Shown: piece by piece, positions 4,797 through 24,742 of the stretch
Position numbering within the stretch: the stretch's first letter is position 1
Layout: each line of letters begins with the position of its first letter
Assembly: GCA_036388415.1 (NCBI GenBank)
Contig: DASVRW010000002.1
Span: forward strand, 186,001 to 250,000
From: Candidatus Saccharimonadales bacterium
GTDB taxonomy: Bacteria > Patescibacteriota > Saccharimonadia > Saccharimonadales > UBA4665
Direction of reading: 5' to 3'
Length of the DNA stretch: 64,000 nt
Translations under genes and position numbers: made by a program
Notes under the pieces: generated by a model
Database searches by the model: none
What the model was told of the DNA's origin: nothing
Seen by the model: the letters and a program-made list of their open reading frames with translations, nothing else

Positions 4797-5173
4797 TATA
4801 GAGAATCAATGAAATTACTAATGTTTGCATCAGACCATGTATACGTGGTTACTCCGCTGATTGTTGTCCGATCTGCGCTGTATGCCCAGATTCCTCGCAC
4901 AGGCGTGCTCTCCTCTTTTGCACATTCGATTTCCCATTTTTGACCTTCGGATGTAAGAGAGTTTTTACTTACTAGGACAATAACACCGTCGGATCGACGG
5001 ATTCTCGTACGAACACGTTCCTTCCATTCTTTATCGTATGCTTGCTTTACGGACATATCGATAAATTCGAATGGTTGCCTGGGATGTAGCGATTGACCCT
5101 TTAAAAAGTCACGCTGATGCTCATCTTCAATTGCAAAAGCTACAAATATAATTTTCTTATCATTGTCAGACAT
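4796..5173 (-). CDS. TIR-like (ThsB-type) signalling protein
   Basis: A 125-residue single domain starts with [13 protein letters not shown] at 6-18, the beta-strand A and early loop of TIR-like (DUF1863/ThsB) proteins. A central [14 protein letters not shown] strand is at 62-75 and W80-E81-I82-E83 supplies the expected glutamate on the following helix. Stand-alone TIRs of this length are the infection-sensing NADase of Thoeris systems. It is first in a two-gene operon with the caspase-like effector, with a strong AAGGGGG ribosome site. Conservation of the Glu suggests an active enzyme. Residual doubt is between type IV Thoeris and a relative. Confidence 0.8.
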
Positions 5174-5280
5174 ATTACCCCCTTTTTTTCATAAGTCGGC
5201 GTTAGATACGCTGCTTGTTACTATTATACGCTGCAACTTGTCAACAGCCCAATGCACATGGTCAAATATTCTTATTTGAG

Positions 5281-5562
5281 CTATTGTACAGCTCGACGAA
5301 TTGCTTCGGTGAACGGCGTGTCTTGTTCTTGTACGTCCGGCTCCAGTTCATCGTATGGTTTGATTGATCGATGCTCAGGGTCATTAAAACTCATCCATGC
5401 GGCCCAGACGTTGTGAACGTCTTCGTTGGTAACTTGCGTATGCTTCGCAAGCGCCAAGACGGCGTACATAAGCATTAGCTCGTCAAGGTTTTCGGCTTCT
5501 GGTAAAACTTCGGCTGGGATTTGGCCATGAATTTCACCGGCTAGTTCTTTTATGTAGTTCAT
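5281..5562 (-). CDS. Small acidic conserved hypothetical protein
   Basis: The 93-residue helical acidic protein has no transmembrane segment. Recognisable patches are LMLMYAVLALAKHTQVT, EDVHNVWAAWM and a C-terminal PFTEAIRRAV. I recall small actinobacterial proteins with this layout (a DUF7701-like domain) but cannot confirm the family. A TACTAT -10 box lies 6 nt before the ATG, indicating a leaderless transcript. It lies between the TIR-caspase operon and the phage-like island, transcribed separately. Confidence 0.6.
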   Translation of the reverse strand: MNYIKELAGEIHGQIPAEVLPEAENLDELMLMYAVLALAKHTQVTNEDVHNVWAAWMSFNDPEHRSIKPYDELEPDVQEQDTPFTEAIRRAVQ

Positions 5563-5616
5563 GACTTAATAGTAGCACTTTAGCTTGGTATAATAATAAT
5601 TAAGATAGGGGTAAAC

Positions 5617-6357
5617 GTGAGCAACGGGAGAACAGTTTCAATCCAAGTTTCGACGGCGCAGCAATTCCATGTTGCTGCCGAAGCTCGCCGTGCTGCCCAA
5701 AAAACGATTGAAGCGTCTTTACCGGCTGAGAAGCTAGCCCTAATTGCTGAAGCCCAGCAACGCCAGGTGGCGGCAATAATGCCACGAATTAGTTCAATAA
5801 CTGTACCAATATTCAAAGAGTTCCGTCGAACAATGCTGTTTCACGGTGCGGCTTTTCGCTCGGTCTCAATGCCCTATACTCAGCTGAACCAGTCGATTAC
5901 GGCTTGGCAAAAAGTACTAAGCAGCTCGCTTATTACAGGCTTCCAACAATCAACATTTGGCTCGATACCGTTTGTTATCAACTTTGAAACGCCAGATATC
6001 CTTATGCCGCGCCAACTTGAACAAGCTGTTATTGCGGATGAGTCATTACAATTACCAGACAGTACAAATCTTACTGTTTCAATCGACCAATATGGCAACT
6101 TTGTTATTAATCAGCATACAATGTACCGTGCAAACGCAAATACTTCCGAACACGGCAAGCTACTGCACTTACTTGAGAGCCGTAAAGACGAGTTTATTAA
6201 AAATGACGAACTAAGAGCGCATTTTAAGGCTGGCAGCGTACGCGAAATTATGAAGAATCTTAAAAAGGATATGCGTGAATCAGGCTATCGGTTAGATTAT
6301 GACCGGCACCGTCGCCAAGGTTTGGTGTACCACGGCATTATTCACCGCCAACAGTAG
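5617..6357 (+). CDS. Hypothetical protein with C-terminal winged-helix-like domain
   Basis: This starts at GTG with an AGGGG ribosome site 5-9 nt upstream. Of 246 residues, the N-terminus is an Ala/Gln-rich helix, the middle is not recognised, and the last ~75 residues (HGKLLHLLESRKDEFIKNDE onward) look like a winged helix with a positively charged recognition helix and a final beta wing. A DNA-binding role is inference. It is the first plus-strand gene of the island and is closed by a terminator at 6384. Confidence 0.55.
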   Translation: MSNGRTVSIQVSTAQQFHVAAEARRAAQKTIEASLPAEKLALIAEAQQRQVAAIMPRISSITVPIFKEFRRTMLFHGAAFRSVSMPYTQLNQSITAWQKVLSSSLITGFQQSTFGSIPFVINFETPDILMPRQLEQAVIADESLQLPDSTNLTVSIDQYGNFVINQHTMYRANANTSEHGKLLHLLESRKDEFIKNDELRAHFKAGSVREIMKNLKKDMRESGYRLDYDRHRRQGLVYHGIIHRQQ

Positions 6358-7709: not shown

Positions 7710-8446
7710 AATCCGGTGACATATACCGGCTTGGCAGCCACCGCTTAGCCTATGGCAGTTCTAGTGACACGGACCTACTTGCCCGGCTTGTAAGCGCAGA
7801 TAAAGTAGCCATGGTCCTAACTGACCCGCCCTACGGCGTCTCATATGTTGAAAGCAAACGCGGTATTGCTAGTTTGGCGACCGATAAGGTTATCGCTAAT
7901 GACAATATCGGAGACGAAACGGAATACAAGGCGTTCAGCGTGGCATGGATCGAGGCGGTTAAGCCGCACCTGGCCCGCAAGAATAGTATCTATATCTTTA
8001 ATTCGGACAAAATGCTGGTGCCGACTGTTGAAGCTATGAAGTCTACCGGCTGTAAGTTTGCTCAACTTCTTATCTGGGCTAAAACTCATGCGGTGGTTGG
8101 CCGCTTGGATTACTTGCCTCAGCACGAGCTAATTCTGTATGGCTGGTATGGCACCCATACTTTTAAAAAGAGCAAAGATAAAAGTATTCTGGTCTATCCC
8201 CGGCCGAATCGGAGCAAACTGCATCCGACTATGAAGCCAGTCGGTTTATTACGGCGGCTTCTACTTAATAGCTCGAGCGTCCGAGATATTGTCTTTGACG
8301 GCTTTGCCGGGAGTGGCAGTACTCTATTAGCTTGTGAACAGACTAACCGCCAATGCTTGGCAGTCGAGCTTGACCCGGAGTACTGCCAAGTAATCATTGA
8401 CCGTTGGGAAAGACTGACTGGCCAAACAGCGGAGCTGCTAATATGA
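7706..8446 (+). CDS. DNA modification methylase (N4/N6 type)
   Basis: A longer frame exists, but the ATG at 7706 overlaps the previous stop (ATGA), giving 246 residues. It begins SGDIYRLGSHRLAYG, the same lead-in as the preceding enzyme's catalytic domain, has intact motif IV DPPYG at 40-44 and motif I FAGSGSTLLACEQ near 207-219, and ends with the common VIIDRWERLTG helix. It is a beta-class methylase without its own ParB domain. The similarity to its neighbour suggests duplication with division of labour, the intact copy probably supplying catalysis. Confidence 0.88.
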   Translation: MKSGDIYRLGSHRLAYGSSSDTDLLARLVSADKVAMVLTDPPYGVSYVESKRGIASLATDKVIANDNIGDETEYKAFSVAWIEAVKPHLARKNSIYIFNSDKMLVPTVEAMKSTGCKFAQLLIWAKTHAVVGRLDYLPQHELILYGWYGTHTFKKSKDKSILVYPRPNRSKLHPTMKPVGLLRRLLLNSSSVRDIVFDGFAGSGSTLLACEQTNRQCLAVELDPEYCQVIIDRWERLTGQTAELLI

Positions 8447-8856
8447 GCCGCAACCAGAAAGCCGATAAGAAGCAACTACTGTTACGCCTTGAAAAGACAC
8501 CGATTGTAGAGGTGGCCTGCCAACAGGCCAAAGTCCCCCGCAGTACCTATTACCGCTGGCGTAAGGCAGATAAAGCATTTGCCGAAGCCTGCGATGAGGC
8601 GCTTGAGGAAAGTATTGGCCGAATCAATGATCTAGCTGAATCGCAGCTCATCAGTGCGATTAAGGAGCAGAATATGGGGGCTATAACATTTTGGCTAAAA
8701 CACCACCACAAACGCTATACTACCCGCGTCGAGCTAACGGCCCGGACTGACCAGGATGAAGCCTTAACGCCAGAACAAGCGGCTACGGTTCGGGCTGCCC
8801 TGCAGCTGGCTGGACTTCTAAGTAATGAAGTAAGCCTGAAAGATATCAATGAATAA
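8443..8856 (+). CDS. Phage terminase small subunit-like protein
   Basis: From the ATG at 8443 (ATGA overlap with the methylase) it has 137 residues. Residues 18-40 form a helix-turn-helix with PRSTYYRWRKADKAF, the form found in phBC6A51-type terminase small subunits and insertion-element HTH proteins. A helical middle and an acidic C-terminus follow. Its position immediately before the large terminase, overlapping it by 8 nt, makes TerS the best call. It would recognise the packaging site and hand DNA to TerL. Confidence 0.78.
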   Translation: MSRNQKADKKQLLLRLEKTPIVEVACQQAKVPRSTYYRWRKADKAFAEACDEALEESIGRINDLAESQLISAIKEQNMGAITFWLKHHHKRYTTRVELTARTDQDEALTPEQAATVRAALQLAGLLSNEVSLKDINE

Positions 8857-10372
8857 TCAACTACCGGCTGAACTATGGCAACATATTCAGTCTGACCGTA
8901 AGGTGCGAATGAAGACCGCCGAGCAAAGCCATGAATGGTTTTTTAGCTTATATCTGGCGGACTATGTATCGTATCCGACTGCGCCGTTTCAACAGGAGAT
9001 ATTCAATTTAACAGAGCGCACGGACATCAACCATATAGTGATCGTTGCTTTTCGTGGCTCCGGTAAGTCGACAATGGTTACCTTGTCATATCCAATTTGG
9101 TCCATCCTTGGAGTGCAGCAAAAGAAGTTTGTATTAATACTAAGCCAAACTCAAAACCAAGCTCGTATGCACTTGGCGAATATTAAACGAGAGTTTGAAA
9201 ATAATGAGCTACTACGTGCGGATTTTGGCCCGCTTGAAGAAGAAAGCGATGAATGGGGATCATCTTCGCTTGTCTTAAGCCAATATGGCGCCCGTATTAG
9301 TGCCGCATCAACCGATCAGAGTATCCGCGGTATTCGGCATGGTAAACACCGCCCTGACCTTATTATATGCGATGACGTTGAAGATCTATTATCCGTGAAG
9401 ACTTATGAAAATCGTAATAAGAACCATAATTGGTTGACCGGTGAAGTCATACCTGCCGGAGACAACAATACTAAGCTTGTTATGGTCGGCAACCTATTAC
9501 ACGAAGATTCCCTCCTCATGCGCGTCAAAGCCCGGTTTGAAGCCGGTGACATGGATGGCGTCTTTAAAGCGTACCCGCTTGTCTCTGATGATGGTCAAGT
9601 GCTATGGACTGGTAAATATCCAGATATTGCCGCCGTCGAAGCCGCCCGACGAAAGCTTGGTAATGACCGCGCTTGGCTTCGTGAATATATGCTCAAGATA
9701 ATACCCGATGAGGATCAGATTATATTACCGCAATGGATTAAATACTATGATAATCTGCCGTCTAAGGATTTTAATACACTTCGTTACAAGGCGGTTGGCA
9801 TTGACCTGGCCATATCCCAGCGCACTACCGCCGACTGTACAGCCATGTTATCTGCTGAGATACATGGTCTCGGCGAAAATATGAAAGTGTATATTCTGCC
9901 GGATCCGGTCAACGCCCATATGTCCCATTTAAAAACGCTCGAAAAGGCTCACGAGCTAGTTGCTAAGCTTGGTACAAAAAGCAGCGTGAAGTTGTTTGTT
10001 GAGGAAGTTGGTTACCAGGGATCGGTTATTGAACAATTAACAAAAGAGAATTATAAGGCCGAAGGCGTAAAGGTACGCGGCCAAGACAAGCGAGCGCGAT
10101 TGTTATCGATCAGTCATCTGGTTGAAAGCGGCAAAGTTGTCTTCCCTCGATACGGTGGCCACCAACTTCTCCAGCAGCTATTAGGTTTTGGTAGCGAACG
10201 ATATGACGATTTGGCAGATGCATTCTCGATATTACTCGAGAAGGTATTGGAGCATGATCACAGGCCTTCAGGAGGAACAGTCACATGGGGCACGGGTTTT
10301 TGGGATAATTATTGGAAGCACCGAAATGCTTTTGAAAGTAGCCGCTGGGAGGGACGAAGACATGGCTGGTGA
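8849..10372 (+). CDS. Phage terminase large subunit
   Basis: This 507-residue protein carries both TerL activities. The ATPase has Walker A AFRGSGKST at 67-75 and Walker B LIICDDVED at 171-179. The RNase H-like nuclease has VGIDLAIS near 316-323 and the final acidic motif YDDLADAFS near 465-475. TerL cuts concatemeric DNA and drives it into a capsid. No portal, capsid, protease or tail gene follows; the operon ends here and a structured non-coding region begins. Length and motif spacing are normal, so the gene looks functional. Confidence 0.93.
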   Translation: MNNQLPAELWQHIQSDRKVRMKTAEQSHEWFFSLYLADYVSYPTAPFQQEIFNLTERTDINHIVIVAFRGSGKSTMVTLSYPIWSILGVQQKKFVLILSQTQNQARMHLANIKREFENNELLRADFGPLEEESDEWGSSSLVLSQYGARISAASTDQSIRGIRHGKHRPDLIICDDVEDLLSVKTYENRNKNHNWLTGEVIPAGDNNTKLVMVGNLLHEDSLLMRVKARFEAGDMDGVFKAYPLVSDDGQVLWTGKYPDIAAVEAARRKLGNDRAWLREYMLKIIPDEDQIILPQWIKYYDNLPSKDFNTLRYKAVGIDLAISQRTTADCTAMLSAEIHGLGENMKVYILPDPVNAHMSHLKTLEKAHELVAKLGTKSSVKLFVEEVGYQGSVIEQLTKENYKAEGVKVRGQDKRARLLSISHLVESGKVVFPRYGGHQLLQQLLGFGSERYDDLADAFSILLEKVLEHDHRPSGGTVTWGTGFWDNYWKHRNAFESSRWEGRRHGW

Positions 10373-12582: not shown

Positions 12583-12966
12583 TTACTTTTCAGGCTCACT
12601 TTTCATATTTTGAAATACTTTCCATCCTTCTTCCGTTCCATCTTCAATGTCCTCTTCGTGTCCAAAGTAGAGTGAAGACGCTTGAATAGTTTCTTTACCG
12701 TATTCTTCAAATTGTTCAGTTTTCCAATTAATAGGCGTTTCAGAATCGATAACTTCAAAAACTTCTGATGGCATCCACCAAGGCAATTCGCTGTCGTCAG
12801 TAACGATAAAGTAGAATTTACCCAAGTCATTGATACGAACACCATAACTTGTATACTCTTTATCAATCGTGATTTCAAGATTACCGTTTTGGTCCTGCGT
12901 AAATGCGAACTTTCTCAATTTAACACTTAGATCATTTATGTTATTTTTGATACACTTCAGTTTCAT
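12583..12966 (-). CDS. Candidate immunity protein for the RHS toxin
   Basis: The 127-residue acidic cytosolic protein has no known motif that I can name; WWMPSEVFEVID near 58-69 is distinctive. Its ATG overlaps the RHS stop codon by 4 nt (ATGA), the classic toxin-immunity order in polymorphic toxin loci, and its acidity fits the strongly basic toxin tip it would have to bind. Function is assigned from position only. Low similarity to neighbours is expected since toxin-immunity ends are exchanged between strains. Confidence 0.6.
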   Translation of the reverse strand: MKLKCIKNNINDLSVKLRKFAFTQDQNGNLEITIDKEYTSYGVRINDLGKFYFIVTDDSELPWWMPSEVFEVIDSETPINWKTEQFEEYGKETIQASSLYFGHEEDIEDGTEEGWKVFQNMKSEPEK

Positions 12967-15900
12967 CGATATCTCTTTATCTTCACCTGTTTTACAGCTT
13001 TCTTAGACGAGTTGTAGAAGTAATGTACTATAACTTTCTTACCCTTATTTGTCAAAGGAACATGCCTGTACTCCATTTTTCGCCACCCATCTTTGGCTGA
13101 GTATCTAGCATCTTTAATTTTTCCTTTCATTATCTCTATGCCTACTTTTGGATTTGCACGAACAGTCTGCATAGCTAGCTTTTCACTAAGATTTCTAGCC
13201 GCTACTGTAGCAGCTTTCTTGGCTACATGTTTTGCGGCGTACTGAACTGCTATTCTCCCCGCAAATATCGCTACTGGTATTAAGAAAGCTGCTTGTCCGT
13301 CTAGATCTTCTTTGTTGATTGGATCAGCTGGGTAAATGTATCGATTTTCTACCCCGCCCTCTATTGGATCGACCTGTAAAAAGCGACCAAGGCTTGCAAT
13401 ATAGATCCTGGCACCCATTTCCTGAGGCTTAAGAGTAAAGTCTTTTTCAGTTTGCTTTTGATGCTTACCGACCCAGCCATAGCTATTGCCAGCGGTAGTG
13501 TTGTCTGCAGCAGTCGAGGACAACAATTGACCGAATGGATCATATTGATATGATCCGGTACTTGTACCATTAGTATTTGTTGTTGCCATGACGTCACCAT
13601 GTATATTCGGTAGACTGTAGGTGTCTTTTTTAGCAGCATCGGTTTCAGTTGGTCGGATAGTAAGTAGAACGCCACCAGGAAGTGCCTGGTACTTCTCAAC
13701 GACCGTCCAGCTAGTATTACGGATGAAGTCAGCGGTATCGCCAGTTCCAGTGTAGCCAGAAAAGGTTTGTTTTTGATTTAATCCATAATTGTCTTGACTG
13801 CGGTATTTAATGCGGTTTTGCGCATCGCGACTGAAGAAGGCTTCGACGCCTCCATTATTCTCAATTATCGCGCTATTGCGATCGCTTGAATCGTAACGGA
13901 ATTCTGTTCTGGTCGTGCCACTGCCAAGGAAACGGGTATTGCCATGGGCGTCGTACTCGGCATTTGTTACAGTAGGATCTGTCGAACTCACAAGCTGATC
14001 GGCATTGTTGTAGCAGTAGTTAGTTGTAGTGGTCGTACCACCATTAGTACGGGTCGCGCTTGTTCGGTTAGCGTTTTTCCCGGCGTTTGCGTTGTCGCCA
14101 ACGGCGCAACCGGTAGCGGTACCAAAGCCATAAGTGAACTGCTGCCCTGCAACCGTTGCACTTACTAATCTACTGGCTTTGTCATAGCTATAGCTTTTCG
14201 CTTGGCCTAGCTCTGTCCCGGAGATTATCTGACCAGACTGCGAACGAGTTACCGAATCGCTGACTTGAGATGTGCTGTCGCCAAGAGTGTAAGTAACATT
14301 GTTACTACGTCCAAGTTGGTCGTAACCGATACTGACAGCGGATGATCCGGCAGTCGGATATGTTGCGCTGTTCAAGCGGCCAAAGGCGTCGTAGCCAGCA
14401 TAAGATAGTACTACTGAATCGAGTTTCTGCTCTGTCAAGCGATTAAAATTATTGTAAACGTATTCTTCAAGACCAACCGGGCTGGTTTTAGAGGTGAGTC
14501 GGCCAATTGCATCGTAAACATATTGTGTAGTATTTACGTACGAGTCTGAGTAGGTAACGGTTCGACCTAGCAAATCAAATGTCGTTTGTATAGTGCCCTC
14601 AGGATCACTCGTGTTTGTAATCAGTGGGTTTCCGCCTACTGCCCAGCTATTAGTAACTGTTCTGGCTGATGCACCATTGATGGCTGGTATCTGCACCTGT
14701 GTGACGCGGCCACGATCATCATAGGTTGTACATGTCCACGGGTCAGTGTTATAGCGGATAGCTACAACCCGACCTGCGTCATCGTAGACTGTTTCAGTAG
14801 TGCGAGCAGCTCCGGCTCCGGCAAGACCCGGCTCAGTCTTAAGCTTAAGCATGCCGCCTTGCTTAAATACTTCAGTAGCAGGTGTGCACGGGTTATCAGC
14901 TGTTTCAGTCGCACCAAAGTAGCCGTAACTTGTGTTGGTGCCGCCAGGCAGTGTCTTGCCAATCATGCGCATTAAGCTCCCAGTTGCGCCTTGTGCTTCG
15001 TAGCTAGAGGAGGTGTTATAGTTAAGCCCGCCCGGATCAACAATACTACTTTGAGCGAGGCCCAACTCTGGACTGGCGCCGTAATTGGTATTTGTCTGTG
15101 TGTCACCGACTTGAGTGCTAGAATCGAAATTCTTTTGAGAAGTTGTTAAGCCGTATCGGGGTGTCAGCAGTGATCCTAATGCAGCTGTTTCGGATCCTCC
15201 CGGCGAAGTTTTGTAAAGAATGAGTTGAGCATCGTTTTCGGTTGTATTCTTATTGTAATACTCAACTCGGATAGGGTGATAGCTGTTAGCAACGGTGTTA
15301 TTAATCGTAACGTTCATATTCATAGCGTGAGAGCGTTGGCCGCCGTCTTCCCAGTCATTGATGATAAGCTTGTCATCAACGTATAAACGGACACCGTCGT
15401 CGCTATGTACCCTGAACGTATGTACGCCTACTTCATTGAGCTTGACATCACCACTTAAGCGTACGCCCCAGCCAGTATTGCCGTTGCCAGTATCGACCGG
15501 TGTCGGTACGGTTGAACCCCACGTCCGGTTGATATCACCGTTCGAGCCGCCAATACCTGTCTGATGGTTCTTAGGTGCTCCGCTCAATGTTTTAGTGCTG
15601 GATTTGTAGTTATAGTATGTAGCAGCAAGACTATTAATGCCTTCATCATAGCCACTTTGATTACGCGGTACTTGTGATACATAAGCAGCTAATGGCTTTC
15701 TATCTGCTCCAAACCAAGCGGACGGTGCTGCGCCGTATCTATCAGTCAACCGATCAGCATAATCATAGATATGCATTGTTTTAAGACCGACTGGGTCGGT
15801 GGTAGACAGGATCATGTCTTTAACTGGATCCCACTCGGTCGTAGTCATCAAGTTTGCTAAATCAGTATCTTGCAAGGTCCTGAAGGTACTGTCGTATTCA

Positions 15901-18900
15901 ACCTTACGGTTAAAGCCGACTGGTTCCGTGGCACCATCAACTTTTACGAATGAGTATCCGGCACTTGCTACGCCACTCTGAGGATCAACGCTGTTGTATT
16001 GATAGGAATGAGCTTGCCTGGTAGCTCCCGGTGTTGCCTCAGGATATTTGACTTTTGTAGCCCGACCAATCAAATCGTAGCTTATGGTCGTATTAAGCAA
16101 ATCACTTTGAGTTCTTACTCCAGCAGATACTGCATCGTTTGCTAGTGCGGTTCGCATCTGCGTAAGTAGCCCAGTTCCAGCTGAATCATAGCCAAATGAT
16201 TGTATCTCATTGCCAGGCTCAACAATTCGTGCGAGTTGCGGCTTACCAGTAGGATCGTTCTGATAGACAAATTGAGTTACACGGTTATCGGAGGTCTTTA
16301 AGGCACATACCATATTTGTCGGTACGGCATCGAAACCTGATGGCACAGCTGGACAAGCCGATTCACCAGCGTAGATCAATTGTGCAAAACGCGAAGTGTC
16401 CACAGAATCGCTTAACTTCAATAGATGGGTGATGTTAGGGTTAGCAGATCCGGGGCTTGTACCGTAATCATAGTTTATGACGGCTGCTTTGCGGCTATCG
16501 ACTGGATTAGTGACCGAGCGAATAGTACCATCGGAGTTAAAGACGTAGGTTTTTCCATCCGAATCCTGCAAAGTTAAGCTGCCATCGGCGTTACGAGTCA
16601 ATATGCCTTCTTCATTTGGCGGAGCAACATAAGCATTGTTAACGTATTTGTATTCATGAGTTTCTCCAGTTGCGTCACGTAAGACTACGCTGCTGTTATT
16701 AATTGCAGCAAATTCGTAAGTTAAGTCACCATCTTCATCTGCACTTAGCTTCCAACCGTCCGGTAAGGCCGGTACTTCTTGTGTAAGCATTTCGGCTGGT
16801 ACCACCCGTTCAGCTCCCGATGAATCTATCATATGTAGCTCTGCGGTAGCACCACCGGCGTTTTCATAGTACTCGACAGTAATTGGATATGACTGACCGG
16901 CGTTTAATTGAACGGTGTTTGATTGTGTCGTAATGCCAGGGTTATCAGCCCAGTTATTGAGTATCGGCGTAGTCGAATTATTAAGGAATACCCGACTGCC
17001 GTCATCAGCTACTGTCTTAAATTTGTAGTTATCGGTGACTTGAGGAGTGATATAGCCGCTCCAGCGAACCATGAAGTCGTCTGAAGGCGCACCTGGAATT
17101 GGACTACCGCCTCCCCAGTGGAATGATACCTGACTGTCATTACGTGTTAAGAAAAGTCGGTCATTAGCATTTGCAGGAAAGCTTGGTGAGGGGCCATTAT
17201 TGTCGCTGTAGTAATACCGTCCTGTTAATCCGTACTTGTCACTCACCTGCTTTACGCCGGTTTGAAGCCAGTTACTTAGCACGACCCGTTCACCATTTGG
17301 ATTAGATTGTGCATTGGCAAACTGAGGACCCTTTACATACAATTTCATTCTTGCACCTTGCTCCCAGTCAAAGTACTCAATCTTTATAGGAATAATTTGT
17401 CCGGCAGTCAGCTGTACTGAATCTGTACCGAATCTCAATGTCGGTGAACTATAACCCCAGCTGTCCAGTTTCGCGGTCGTTTCATTATTCACAAATATAC
17501 GAACGCCATCATCAGCATCAGCACCAAACTTATATGTTCCATCTAGCGGAGCGACAAAGTAACCTTGCCAACGAGCTAAGAAATGATCATTGCTAATCGT
17601 GCCCGGTTGCGGCGATCCGCCCAACCAATCAGAGTCCACAGCACCGTCAACACGAGTTACGGCCGGTGCGGTGCTTGGGAAGCAGGCACAGTTGGCCGCA
17701 TCATTCCAATACTGGGCAGTCAGCCCATTACGTGAGCGTACTGGGGAATTGTATTCTAGTCCTAAGCCTAGTGAGCCCCCTAATGCACTAACAGAATGAG
17801 TGTTATTAGAAGTAGTTACATTGCCAGTTGCCAAATCAGTTGAAACCCCTTCAACAGTGTCGAAGGCTTGCGTAGCGTCTTTGCCATTGCGCATATCAAC
17901 CCTAAACGACCGCACTTCGCTGTCTTTCCAAGAACCTAGCCGACCAGTTGCAGGATTGCCAGCATCTACTTGATCCCACGTTTGCACTTTCCAGTAATAA
18001 GTTGTTCCGTCTTTCAATGCGTTATCCGGTACCGTCCACTGCGGTGAATCGAGCCAATCAGACGATACGACCATACCACTATTTCCATCATTGCCAGTCG
18101 TAACGCGGAAGCGATACTTAACCGCTTGTCCGTCAGGATCGGTCGCGTAGCCACTTGTTAGAAACGGTTGTACATTAACGACCGTTGCTTTATCTGCCGG
18201 AGCAGTTAAAGCACTAGCAGCTGGAAGATTGTCATAAGTAAAAGTGACACGGGTGTCTTCATAATCAAAAGTCTTAAATGTATAGTTATCACTTTCATCA
18301 CCATTAACCATCATCCAGAAGCCGAAATCGCCGCCTGCAATCGCTTTACGGTAGAGCTCAGTCACGTCCATGTCACCTTGGTAACCGATGTTAGCACTGG
18401 CCGTACCATAGCTTCCGTCAATACCATGGTAATTGAATGCACCTAAGTGGCGTGCGTAGAACATACGTCCGTCGTATGTACCTTTAGTAGATATGGAGGA
18501 ATCATTTGGCTCAACCATTTGAAGGTGCAGAGAGGCATTTAATAAGTACTTATTAGGATCTTGTAACTGATCAAAATTAGCGTGCGTAGCAAACCGCCAG
18601 ATATAGTACGGTCTGTTGTTACCAGCGCTGTTGCTGCAGCCCATACCTGGATTGCATACGTAGCCATCGTGGCGGTAGTTCACATAATTGAAGCCATTGT
18701 TTGATACAAAGCTTGGGTCGACAATTACCGGAAATGATTTCTTATCTAATTTTGAAAACCAATCTTTGTCTACATCGACGGTTATTTCATTGTTGCTAAT
18801 TGTCTGTTTAACATATGGTTCGGATCCGACAATACCCTGGTCGGCAAGGCCAACAGTAGGTGGTGCTATATTAAGGTCAGCCATTTCACCGTCCAATTTA

Positions 18901-19754
18901 TAATAGCCAGGTTGATCAGGATTTGGACTTAAGCTTGCGCCATCTAATTTAAATTTGAAGTTGGTTTGACTTTCCGGCTTACTAATAACGATGCTTTCTT
19001 TTAGCTCGGAGGCATTAACTTCATACTTTACGTCTACCCCAGGCCAAACATTCTTGTAAGTAACAATTTGGTCAGAGCCGCTGTCACTTACTTCAGGCTC
19101 GCTATCTTTGCCGCCTATTGGAGTTAACTTTGCAGTTTGATTGCCCTGCTTTACATTAACGCCCTCAGTTTCAGTTAATTTCTTAAAAGTTACCTGCCAC
19201 TTGTTGGCTTTTGTTTTCCACTCGTTCTTTGACTTGTCTTTTTCGAGAGTCATATCAATGTCTTGCCACTTGCCGTCTTTTTGATAACTTGTCGGTAAAA
19301 CACTTTGCTCGACGGTTTTGCTGCCATCTTTATTAAGGAAGGTCTTTTGAGTTGGACTGCGATCTTCGTCGAGTACTTTAACTTTTGTAAGATCCCGTGG
19401 TTTACCGTTTTGAAGTACCTTACGGGTCTCGCTCAACTCGTTCTTCATTTTATCGGGAAGTTTAGAGACTTTCTTAGCGTCGCCCAGATCGACCGGGACG
19501 GCACCTGAAGCGACATTGTTCAAGGCTTGAGGCGTTCGGGCTTGCTTCTGCTGATAATCATAAAGAAATGAACCTAACCCAACTGTAAGGCTTGAAAAAG
19601 TAAAAACGGTTGCAACTGTTACTGCGGAAAAGCGCATATTAAAGTCTTTGATTTTACGCTCATTAAGCTTGTATTTTTTGTGTAATAAAAAAAGCGCCGT
19701 CAATTTTAACGGCGCTTTTGCAATTGCTTTGAATTTTTGGCCAAAACCTCTCAT
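12963..19754 (-). CDS. Giant WapA/RHS-like surface polymorphic toxin with three PA14 domains
   Basis: This 2263-residue protein has a basic N-terminus and a membrane anchor or signal at about 42-65. A WapA-like region to about 520 includes a DNRLRE-type module. PA14 carbohydrate-binding domains lie at about 671-818, 838-988 and 1371-1525. RHS/YD repeats lie between and after them, and the core closes at about 2125-2150 with DPIEGG and IYPADPIN. The last ~110 residues are a basic, distinct tip (GWRKMEYRH, VIVHYFYN) that should be the toxin; its fold is not recognised, an RNase is plausible. Family knowledge: RHS shells encapsulate and deliver such tips by contact. The start could instead be the ATG at 19631, because a terminator-like hairpin lies within the first codons. 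Confidence 0.88.
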   Translation of the reverse strand: MRGFGQKFKAIAKAPLKLTALFLLHKKYKLNERKIKDFNMRFSAVTVATVFTFSSLTVGLGSFLYDYQQKQARTPQALNNVASGAVPVDLGDAKKVSKLPDKMKNELSETRKVLQNGKPRDLTKVKVLDEDRSPTQKTFLNKDGSKTVEQSVLPTSYQKDGKWQDIDMTLEKDKSKNEWKTKANKWQVTFKKLTETEGVNVKQGNQTAKLTPIGGKDSEPEVSDSGSDQIVTYKNVWPGVDVKYEVNASELKESIVISKPESQTNFKFKLDGASLSPNPDQPGYYKLDGEMADLNIAPPTVGLADQGIVGSEPYVKQTISNNEITVDVDKDWFSKLDKKSFPVIVDPSFVSNNGFNYVNYRHDGYVCNPGMGCSNSAGNNRPYYIWRFATHANFDQLQDPNKYLLNASLHLQMVEPNDSSISTKGTYDGRMFYARHLGAFNYHGIDGSYGTASANIGYQGDMDVTELYRKAIAGGDFGFWMMVNGDESDNYTFKTFDYEDTRVTFTYDNLPAASALTAPADKATVVNVQPFLTSGYATDPDGQAVKYRFRVTTGNDGNSGMVVSSDWLDSPQWTVPDNALKDGTTYYWKVQTWDQVDAGNPATGRLGSWKDSEVRSFRVDMRNGKDATQAFDTVEGVSTDLATGNVTTSNNTHSVSALGGSLGLGLEYNSPVRSRNGLTAQYWNDAANCACFPSTAPAVTRVDGAVDSDWLGGSPQPGTISNDHFLARWQGYFVAPLDGTYKFGADADDGVRIFVNNETTAKLDSWGYSSPTLRFGTDSVQLTAGQIIPIKIEYFDWEQGARMKLYVKGPQFANAQSNPNGERVVLSNWLQTGVKQVSDKYGLTGRYYYSDNNGPSPSFPANANDRLFLTRNDSQVSFHWGGGSPIPGAPSDDFMVRWSGYITPQVTDNYKFKTVADDGSRVFLNNSTTPILNNWADNPGITTQSNTVQLNAGQSYPITVEYYENAGGATAELHMIDSSGAERVVPAEMLTQEVPALPDGWKLSADEDGDLTYEFAAINNSSVVLRDATGETHEYKYVNNAYVAPPNEEGILTRNADGSLTLQDSDGKTYVFNSDGTIRSVTNPVDSRKAAVINYDYGTSPGSANPNITHLLKLSDSVDTSRFAQLIYAGESACPAVPSGFDAVPTNMVCALKTSDNRVTQFVYQNDPTGKPQLARIVEPGNEIQSFGYDSAGTGLLTQMRTALANDAVSAGVRTQSDLLNTTISYDLIGRATKVKYPEATPGATRQAHSYQYNSVDPQSGVASAGYSFVKVDGATEPVGFNRKVEYDSTFRTLQDTDLANLMTTTEWDPVKDMILSTTDPVGLKTMHIYDYADRLTDRYGAAPSAWFGADRKPLAAYVSQVPRNQSGYDEGINSLAATYYNYKSSTKTLSGAPKNHQTGIGGSNGDINRTWGSTVPTPVDTGNGNTGWGVRLSGDVKLNEVGVHTFRVHSDDGVRLYVDDKLIINDWEDGGQRSHAMNMNVTINNTVANSYHPIRVEYYNKNTTENDAQLILYKTSPGGSETAALGSLLTPRYGLTTSQKNFDSSTQVGDTQTNTNYGASPELGLAQSSIVDPGGLNYNTSSSYEAQGATGSLMRMIGKTLPGGTNTSYGYFGATETADNPCTPATEVFKQGGMLKLKTEPGLAGAGAARTTETVYDDAGRVVAIRYNTDPWTCTTYDDRGRVTQVQIPAINGASARTVTNSWAVGGNPLITNTSDPEGTIQTTFDLLGRTVTYSDSYVNTTQYVYDAIGRLTSKTSPVGLEEYVYNNFNRLTEQKLDSVVLSYAGYDAFGRLNSATYPTAGSSAVSIGYDQLGRSNNVTYTLGDSTSQVSDSVTRSQSGQIISGTELGQAKSYSYDKASRLVSATVAGQQFTYGFGTATGCAVGDNANAGKNANRTSATRTNGGTTTTTNYCYNNADQLVSSTDPTVTNAEYDAHGNTRFLGSGTTRTEFRYDSSDRNSAIIENNGGVEAFFSRDAQNRIKYRSQDNYGLNQKQTFSGYTGTGDTADFIRNTSWTVVEKYQALPGGVLLTIRPTETDAAKKDTYSLPNIHGDVMATTNTNGTSTGSYQYDPFGQLLSSTAADNTTAGNSYGWVGKHQKQTEKDFTLKPQEMGARIYIASLGRFLQVDPIEGGVENRYIYPADPINKEDLDGQAAFLIPVAIFAGRIAVQYAAKHVAKKAATVAARNLSEKLAMQTVRANPKVGIEIMKGKIKDARYSAKDGWRKMEYRHVPLTNKGKKVIVHYFYNSSKKAVKQVKIKRYR
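19685..19718 (-). terminator. Terminator-like hairpin inside the 5' end of the RHS frame
   Basis: On the minus strand AAAGCGCCGT and ACGGCGCTTT form a 10-bp stem with an 8-nt loop followed by seven T, a textbook intrinsic terminator. It lies about 12-23 codons after the first ATG of the RHS gene, so it either attenuates that gene or shows that translation begins downstream at 19631. Confidence 0.65.
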
Positions 19755-22506: not shown

Positions 22507-22576
22507 TTCATCTCATATACATACCGCTTATGATTATTGTGGTACACTTTTCGTAACGATATGTAATGAGAAGGCT

Positions 22577-24742
22577 ATGAACCCAACACAATCCCCCGAA
22601 CCTGCCGATGTACCAACCAATAAACCACAAGCTGGGAGTGCACCAGGCGACCAGATACCGGTACGCGTAAGCCAAAATAACGACGGTGTACGTATTTCCC
22701 CGCCGCCGGCGCCATCTGCAAATACGGATACCTCCACTTCAAATACTCAGCCGAATGGCACTATCCAGCCGTCAAGTGCTCAGCCAACTTTCGCATATGA
22801 TGCCGTGCGACCAGCCCAGCCGGCTGCAACTGACGCGCCAGCACCAGGGGTGTCAGTGTCTCAAGCGGCAGGAGCATCGGCACCAGTGCAATCCGGGCAG
22901 ACCTCTGAGCAGGACATGCAGACAACGCAATCAATGACGCAGGAGACCCAGCCAGCCGTTCAGCCCGATGCGGCTCCTGCGCCGCAGCAAATCATATCTC
23001 AGCAATGGGCTTCTGGTGCTTCCGGGTCCCTGCCAACAGAAACGTCGGCTACCGCTGCGCCGAGCCCGGCGTTTTACTCTGATGATCATCCGGTTGTCGG
23101 CGGCAAGCCAGCAGGCAGACGCAAATTTGTCATTTTCGGAGCAGCACTGGCACTTGTACTGGTGCTAGCTGGCGGTTATGTGTTTGGCATGTATCTGCCG
23201 AACAAGCCTGAAAATGTTTACCGCACCGGACTGAGCCGCACTGGCGTCGCCGTCGATAAGCTGATAGACGCTGGTACTGAGCAATCCAAAATCGCAGCTA
23301 TCAAGAGCTCGGATGTCAGCGGTACGATCCAGGTGACTGGTCCGGATGGCAAACAAACGGGCACATTCAGTACCAAATACGACGACAAACAATCTGATTC
23401 GGCGTTCAATTACCGTCCATCGGCTACAGCGAATAATTTTAACGTTCAGATCATGAGCGACCTGGCGGACGGCCAGACATATCCGAGCGTGTACTTCAAA
23501 TGGACGAATCTGTCGGTGCTCGGACTCGACCAGATGATACCTGAACTCGCGAAGTACGATGGTAAATGGATCGGCGCGACCAGCCAATATATCGAATCAA
23601 TGATACCCGCTGAATCGCAAGCAGCCGAGAAGGACAAGCAAGCGAAATTTACGGAAGCCGATGCAGCCCAGCTGGCCCGCACTGTGACGGACACGACCCG
23701 CGAGTATGTGCTGACTGGAGATAGTAATAAGGCTGTGCTTGTTCAAAAGTCGTTTAAGGGTACCGAGAAGCTTGACGGCGACGTAACGGCCAACAGGTAT
23801 GTCGTCGGCATCGATAAGCCGCACGCCAAAGATTATTGCGCTGCCCTGATCACACGGGTTATGGCAGCTGATGCCTACAAGCGGGTGCCCGGCGTATCGA
23901 CGGATGGTATTGCCAAAGACCGTGACGCTGCCATCAAAGACTGCAAGCAAAGTATCGATGATGACATCAAGGATTCTGACACCTTTGAAATGTGGATTGA
24001 TAAAAGCAGCAAGCTGATACACAAAATACGTTTTGCGGAAAAAGATGACGCAGGAACCTATGTCGAGCTCGGCCAGTCATACAAAAGCGGCGACCGAATT
24101 CCGCTCTTCGTCCGATTTTATAGCAAAGCAGACAAATACGATGCCAAACTGACACTCGATGTCGACACTAAACAAAGCGTTACAACCGGTTCATTTACAG
24201 GTACCTTTACGGACGGCGAAGACAAAGACTGGACGGTGAAAGCAAGCATGACGTTCAAGCCATACAGTGGTGACGTCAAGGTTACGCCGCCGAAAGACGC
24301 CGTACCGCTGCAGGACGTCTTGACGCTGCTTGGTCTCGACCCAGCCATGCTTAGTACTGGTAGCGCCGAGAGTGATGCAACGCTGTTTGAAAGTGGGTCT
24401 ACCCAGACTGAAGCTGAAGATACTGAGCGGCAGATTGATATATGGGCGTTGCAGGGCCAGCTCGAAGCCTACTATGCTACCAATGGCTGGTACCCGAGCC
24501 TAGCTCAAGTCAATGACGCCAGCTGGCGGGCTGCCAATATGAAAGGCTTGGACGCCGAAGCGCTCGTGGTTCCTGGCAGTATGCTGAAAACATTGGCTGC
24601 CAGCCCGAGTGTTACGCAGTACGGCTACCAGGCAGGTGGCTGCAGCGCCAACAAATGCCGGACATATTCTCTCGAAACTATTTTCAGTAATGGCGAGAAA
24701 TTCATTGAGACAAGTCTCAATGAGGACGTATCTGCAGCTTGA
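22577..24742 (+). CDS. Large membrane-anchored surface protein with pseudopilin-like C-terminus
   Basis: The ATG at 22577 has a GAGAAGG ribosome site and gives 721 residues. The first ~180 are low complexity (Pro, Gln, Thr, Ala, Ser), a cytosolic or wall-spanning region. A single transmembrane segment follows at about 183-207, then a long external region with repeated beta-rich lipocalin-like folds (TFSTKYDD, SVYFKWTNL, TFEMWIDKSSKLIHKI). The last ~110 residues contain DIWALQGQLEAYYATNGWYPSL, which resembles the C-terminal part of GspG/PilE pseudopilins, without their N-terminal helix. The ligand is unknown. It is a strong candidate for a cell-surface or host-contact protein. Confidence 0.6.
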   Translation: MNPTQSPEPADVPTNKPQAGSAPGDQIPVRVSQNNDGVRISPPPAPSANTDTSTSNTQPNGTIQPSSAQPTFAYDAVRPAQPAATDAPAPGVSVSQAAGASAPVQSGQTSEQDMQTTQSMTQETQPAVQPDAAPAPQQIISQQWASGASGSLPTETSATAAPSPAFYSDDHPVVGGKPAGRRKFVIFGAALALVLVLAGGYVFGMYLPNKPENVYRTGLSRTGVAVDKLIDAGTEQSKIAAIKSSDVSGTIQVTGPDGKQTGTFSTKYDDKQSDSAFNYRPSATANNFNVQIMSDLADGQTYPSVYFKWTNLSVLGLDQMIPELAKYDGKWIGATSQYIESMIPAESQAAEKDKQAKFTEADAAQLARTVTDTTREYVLTGDSNKAVLVQKSFKGTEKLDGDVTANRYVVGIDKPHAKDYCAALITRVMAADAYKRVPGVSTDGIAKDRDAAIKDCKQSIDDDIKDSDTFEMWIDKSSKLIHKIRFAEKDDAGTYVELGQSYKSGDRIPLFVRFYSKADKYDAKLTLDVDTKQSVTTGSFTGTFTDGEDKDWTVKASMTFKPYSGDVKVTPPKDAVPLQDVLTLLGLDPAMLSTGSAESDATLFESGSTQTEAEDTERQIDIWALQGQLEAYYATNGWYPSLAQVNDASWRAANMKGLDAEALVVPGSMLKTLAASPSVTQYGYQAGGCSANKCRTYSLETIFSNGEKFIETSLNEDVSAA

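Follow-up and report, generated by a model that had tools for sequence, protein, structure and literature searches.

Type IV pilins and the pseudopilins of type II secretion systems (PulG/GspG, PilE) share with the protein described here a head fold in which the helix alpha1C is followed by a beta sheet, and a pair of cysteines is common to the pilins of Saccharibacteria and to this head. Joining of a pilin part to another domain is known from modular pilins, namely S. sanguinis PilB (PMC8179133) and TM7x PilX1/PilX2 (PMC12206443); according to the accessible portions of these two reports, the extra domain lies C-terminal to the pilin part. The accessible portion of the latter also describes two pili in TM7x, with minor pilins bearing extra C-terminal domains, and presents the recognition and holding of hosts by episymbionts as largely unknown, pili being involved (PMC12206443). 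In the window, by which we mean the whole stretch of 64,000 nucleotides analysed here, the layout of the modular pilins is reversed: the pilin head is the passenger, placed last in a large anchored protein that, unlike type IV pilins and pseudopilins, has neither a prepilin site nor the helix alpha1N. Since grafts of this kind are found on several different membrane proteins from relatives as well, the head of the pilus subunit seems to have gained a second use as a surface module that stands alone. Grafted heads of this kind receive no mention in the accessible portion of the TM7x pilus study (PMC12206443), and among the open papers searched, no title or opening of an abstract describes pilin heads placed C-terminally on unrelated anchored proteins.

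The gene is a continuous ORF in a genome of 1.14 Mb, probably saccharibacterial, assembled in two contigs (Table 1). The preliminary description, made from the sequence alone, was correct in its coordinates, its low-complexity N-terminus and its single membrane helix, as judged by reading of the ORF and by a hydropathy script. Its general picture of an anchored protein of about 720 residues with a distinct domain at the C-terminal end also stands, the protein being 721 residues long and the head occupying the last ~110. The membrane helix corresponds to residues 243-270 in stop-to-stop frame numbering, that is, 182-209 from the ATG; the adjacent RRK and the positive-inside rule suggest an N-in orientation. 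When the entire 721-aa protein was compared with Pfam and NCBIfam, no family was found at E<=1. Elsewhere in the window, positions 12963-19754 of the minus strand encode, as judged by eye, an Rhs-repeat-like protein of 2263 aa that has a membrane helix near its N-terminus and a distinct C-terminal tip.

Table 1. Features of the gene for the anchored protein with a pilin-type head (positions in the window; residues counted from the ATG).
Feature	Position	Strand	Basis and remarks
Whole gene, 721-aa membrane-anchored protein	22577..24742	+	ATG 22577, stop 24740-24742; ORF intact
Possible ribosome-binding sequence GAGAAGG	22568..22574	+	Read by eye; 2 bases 5' of the ATG
Low-complexity P/Q/S/T/A-rich N-terminus, disordered, probably cytosolic	22577..23104	+	Sequence; similar N-terminus in homologues by eye
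Single predicted membrane helix, residues ~182-209	23120..23203	+	Hydropathy script; RRK on the N-side
LolA/LprG-like beta domain, residues ~236-579	23282..24313	+	AF2 model and Foldseek/VIA; weak assignment
Linker, residues ~580-612	24314..24412	+	Model residues 420-441 (595-616 of the protein) have pLDDT <50
Pilin/pseudopilin head: alpha1C and beta sheet, Cys 689 and 694	24413..24739	+	Profiles, AF2 model, structure comparison

Several lines of comparison indicate that the C-terminal domain is almost certainly a pilin-type head. A profile built from 20 pilins, with fused heads excluded, matches it at E 3.5e-25, and it scores 120-123 bits with profiles A1 and A3, which contain the window head itself among their members. 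A search with the tail of the protein found the pilin L002 of the same genome at 2.9e-14. This 164-aa protein, which starts with GFTIVELLIVIV, is the sole other head match in the genome and is flanked by genes resembling by eye PilC and PilM; the window head is 45% identical to it over 85 residues and 41% identical across the whole head alignment. The AF2 model of the head, computed with 43 sequences, has a mean pLDDT of 91.4 and places alpha1C at residues ~609-636. The VIA structure comparison lists 23 entries, 22 of them pilins or pseudopilins and one a pantothenate synthetase; PulG (1t92) ranks first (Z 8.4, rmsd 3.9, 94 aligned residues) and is the sole chain with Z >=8, a Z below 8 being common according to the tool's own caution. 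The list also includes a pilin from Shewanella (Z 7.7, rmsd 1.9, 72 aligned) and EpsG (3fu1; Z 7.5, rmsd 2.2, 82 aligned). PulG is likewise the best Foldseek match, at just E 0.09. The Pfam family T2SSG (PF08334) gives 16.3-16.8 bits on the tail alone, under its gathering cut-off of 21, and the head profile finds TcpA (0.048), geopilin (0.051) and EpsG (0.87) among PDB sequences. Viral glycoprotein entries returned by the PDB sequence search with the tail, at E 0.43 and worse, were taken as chance matches. The likeness of the final ~110 residues to GspG/PilE, proposed beforehand from the sequence, is thus borne out both by the pilin-only profile and by the predicted fold, which is that of PulG and EpsG and not an unrelated one.

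The features by which pilins enter a filament are another matter. The N_methyl profile (PF07963) at E 0.01 finds seven places in the genome and none in the window gene; five of the seven are above the cut-off, and none lies within or adjoining this gene, which is located at C2:208-211 kb, the N_methyl genes being found at 302, 768, 780 and 1055-1057 kb. A motif scan of the protein for the simple prepilin motif was also negative. The preliminary description had held that the pilin helix is missing, which is half right: the hydrophobic half, alpha1N, is absent before the head, where a linker precedes alpha1C and some 400 residues separate the head from the membrane helix on its N-terminal side; alpha1C itself is present. 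The VIA alignments to 16 of the 22 pilin entries begin at chain residue 21-29, many of these entries being truncated constructs. Because of these truncations and because the head model starts at residue 605, the absence of alpha1N is a reading of the sequence, not of the fold.

Between the membrane helix and the head lies a folded beta domain of ~340 residues, which the preliminary description left unmentioned. The AF2 model of the ectodomain construct is of fair quality (mean pLDDT 80), and Foldseek returns four rows at E <=0.001, consisting of three RseB chains (4.4e-4) and LprG (6.6e-4), all with high rmsd. VIA aligns the ectodomain with LolA (4mxt; Z 8.6, rmsd 6.3) and LprG (Z 8.0, rmsd 6.4), many porins ranking above them; the porins at the top of this list, with rmsd of 8-10, were taken as generic. 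Pfam yielded no credible family for the middle domain of 24 members, and the ectodomain profile matched nothing among PDB sequences. These models weakly suggest a LolA/LprG-like domain. LolA, LprG and RseB would offer a possible fold for this region, from which the window protein differs by its membrane helix, its long inserts, the lack of a Pfam family and the lack of any visible lipobox.

The same fusion occurs in relatives, where the preliminary description had proposed to look for it. In a set of 60 genomes (own included), 52 match the window protein somewhere, mostly in short pilin-sized frames. In the class, at least 353 of 392 genomes (own included) match the head at 1e-4, and 116 match the carrier at 1e-6. 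Two types of head were distinguished, corresponding to two pilin types of the window's genome, type A resembling L002 and type B resembling L074. When both head profiles were applied to the 40 strong carrier homologues (E <=1e-30), 9 were found to end in a type A head and 30 to have no head at 1e-3 (the C-terminus of one of these, L063 in G352, is cut by a contig end); the remaining one (L144 in G311) has a probable type B head, at E 8.5e-4 with the type B profile made here. The head is therefore accessory to the carrier, since 30 of the 40 lack it. The architecture of the window protein is seen in eight other strong homologues from eight genomes, one of them (L049) missing its N-terminal part. 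More broadly, type A heads at the C-terminus of proteins without the simple prepilin motif were found at no fewer than 23 loci, in at least 22 of the 392 genomes and at least seven family codes; L049, one of these loci, is cut before the anchor by a contig end. Two further fused loci (L016 and L060) come from the set of 60 relatives, and type B grafts are present also in L043, on the second of its proteins (1.7e-7), and in L175 (2.5e-19). At L052, L053, L055 and L057 the head follows a prepilin motif, and these resemble the known kind of modular pilin.

Several kinds of protein act as carriers: members of the LolA-like family; a TM2 type (L043, L044, L046; Pfam TM2 at 4.3e-17 for L043, the sole one run against Pfam); short anchors with two head matches (L034 and L037, and by eye L035); and an anchor followed by a linker (L016, L059, L060, L061). 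The carriers of L041, L047, L048 and L051 are LolA-like by eye and were counted as fusions, outside the 40 strong homologues. In the same genus, L043 encodes neighbouring TM2-type proteins (5001-5837 and 8105-8995, both on the minus strand), one with a type A and the other with a type B head. A survey of the phylum found a head match at 1e-4 in at least 178 of 379 genomes (own and class members included). Of the 18 long-frame places examined, 12 lie outside the class, and at 6 of the 12 (L111-L115, L119) the head match belongs to a protein that lacks the simple prepilin motif. L114 is almost a duplicate of L115; L118, being partly masked, was left out of the count. For instance, the protein at L113:2258-3787 (minus strand), from another class of Patescibacteria, has a pilin head inserted within a LolA-like domain, and it still matches the carrier profile, at E 1.4e-9, when the head is removed. 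Two more proteins from outside the class, L112 and L119, were considered as further combinations of a LolA-like domain and a head and were set aside, being such by eye only, with a headless match that is weak (L112, E 1.4e-3, prob 17) or nil (L119). By eye, the proteins at L175:943-1902 (plus strand), L056:4959-5756 (minus strand) and L113:2258-3787 have a similar short N-terminal module before the membrane helix and differing heads.

Some residues have been kept and others lost in the fused heads. Five residues of the core (Tyr27, Pro28, Pro54, Tyr72 and Cys82, in head numbering) are invariant in both pilins and fused heads. The Arg in column 2 is present in 43/43 pilins vs 2/22 fused heads (one with a gap), and the Glu in column 92 in 42/43 pilins vs 1/22 fused heads; L061 retains both and L039 retains the Arg. 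Conversely, the Asp in column 3 is found in 22/22 fused heads vs 16/43 pilins, and it may cap the helix that now begins there. That Arg and Glu are mostly lost fits a head that does not polymerize, although the difference is not significant once relatedness is counted: for each residue, two of the three independent pairs that lie on supported branches show the expected change, and with so few pairs, and counts taken over related sequences, significance cannot be reached.

Having a predicted membrane helix, a folded middle domain and a C-terminal pilin head, lacking a prepilin site and alpha1N, and recurring in relatives, the window protein could presumably not be built into a pilus in the ordinary way and would not polymerize. 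Its head would remain on the outer side, anchored to the membrane, as a binding module that stands alone, with the middle domain serving as a stalk that keeps it close to the membrane. It could then be a short-range counterpart of the pilus surface, making the same contacts as a pilin head, for which the host surface, DNA or a neighbouring filament are candidates. We prefer this tethered binding module to pilus docking and to generic re-use of the domain, while rating it somewhat below an even prospect. Membrane proteins with a pilus-subunit head but no pilus offer a defined set of candidates, open to expression, that may mediate contact at close range or control the pilus.

A fusion used for docking or sensing had been suggested at the outset; the fusion is real and recurs in relatives, whereas the role is a hypothesis. 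On this account, which we consider unlikely, the tethered head would take the place of a pilin in binding to the shaft of the pilus, to the pilins pooled in the membrane or to the assembly platform, and would anchor the pilus base, cap the pilus or limit its length. The grafting of heads like those of two pilin types speaks for it. So does the head tree in part (65 heads, 43 from pilins and 22 fused; unrooted, based on few columns, with bootstrap not settled, and with L051, L056 and L059 excluded as long branches), in which the fused head of L041 clusters with L099, the pilin of its own genome (support 100/88). A rank test on 20 of the 25 fused loci (L016, L044, L059, L060 and L061 being unpaired) points the same way, the own pilin having a mean rank of 7.8 of 20 (expected 10.5; p 0.02 vs uniform) and rank 1 in 5 of 20 genomes, a closeness that shared ancestry alone could explain. 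However, the window head ranks its own pilin 13th of 20 and clusters with the fused heads of L039, L045 and L049, all on carriers of the same family (97/91), L002 itself clustering with L102, the pilin of a different genome from the genus to which L002 belongs (100/91). The loss of the near-invariant pilin Arg and Glu from most fused heads and the distance of the window gene from the N_methyl genes of the genome also argue against docking. Since on the tree the window head sits with fused heads from other genomes, borne by homologous carriers, and not with its own pilin, the window graft is old and inherited; and since that of L041 groups with its own genome's pilin, there were several captures.

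The head might instead have spread by domain shuffling simply as a stable extracellular terminal domain, without a role connected to pili, a possibility that we also rate as rather improbable. The many headless carrier homologues and the several kinds of carrier are in keeping with such re-use, as is the distribution of the fused/pilin label on the tree, which needs five changes vs 18.5 for shuffled labels, so that much of the label is inherited. Nevertheless, supported branches force at least three changes, whose direction we infer to be from pilin to fused, and heads of two pilin types have been used, which is more than one chance shuffle. A chance fusion or an assembly artefact can be regarded as refuted, its probability being negligible: many genomes of relatives are fragmented, with contig ends truncating L049 and L063, but the window ORF is continuous in a two-contig genome, the eight homologues of the same architecture come from as many genomes, and the core of the fold is conserved. 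It is conceivable, though on balance doubtful, that Patescibacteria repeatedly turn their own pilin heads, of two types, into non-polymerizing modules tethered to the membrane through surface proteins with no other relationship to one another; these would make up a filament-free second layer of pilin-type contacts (with the host, DNA or the pilus) that would serve life on other cells.

Finally, the gene neighbourhoods were compared in 40 carrier loci. Genes of the Mur-ligase type were seen in 18, alpha/beta hydrolase in 13, Ddl in 11 and DNA ligase in 11, these family names resting on one or two examples each; the window locus has none of these four types of neighbour, and gene neighbourhood was accordingly given no weight in the interpretation. 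At L033, L036, L038, L040 and L042, and in unfused relatives, the carriers often lie beside genes for DNA ligase, Mur ligase, alpha/beta hydrolase and D-Ala-D-Ala ligase.
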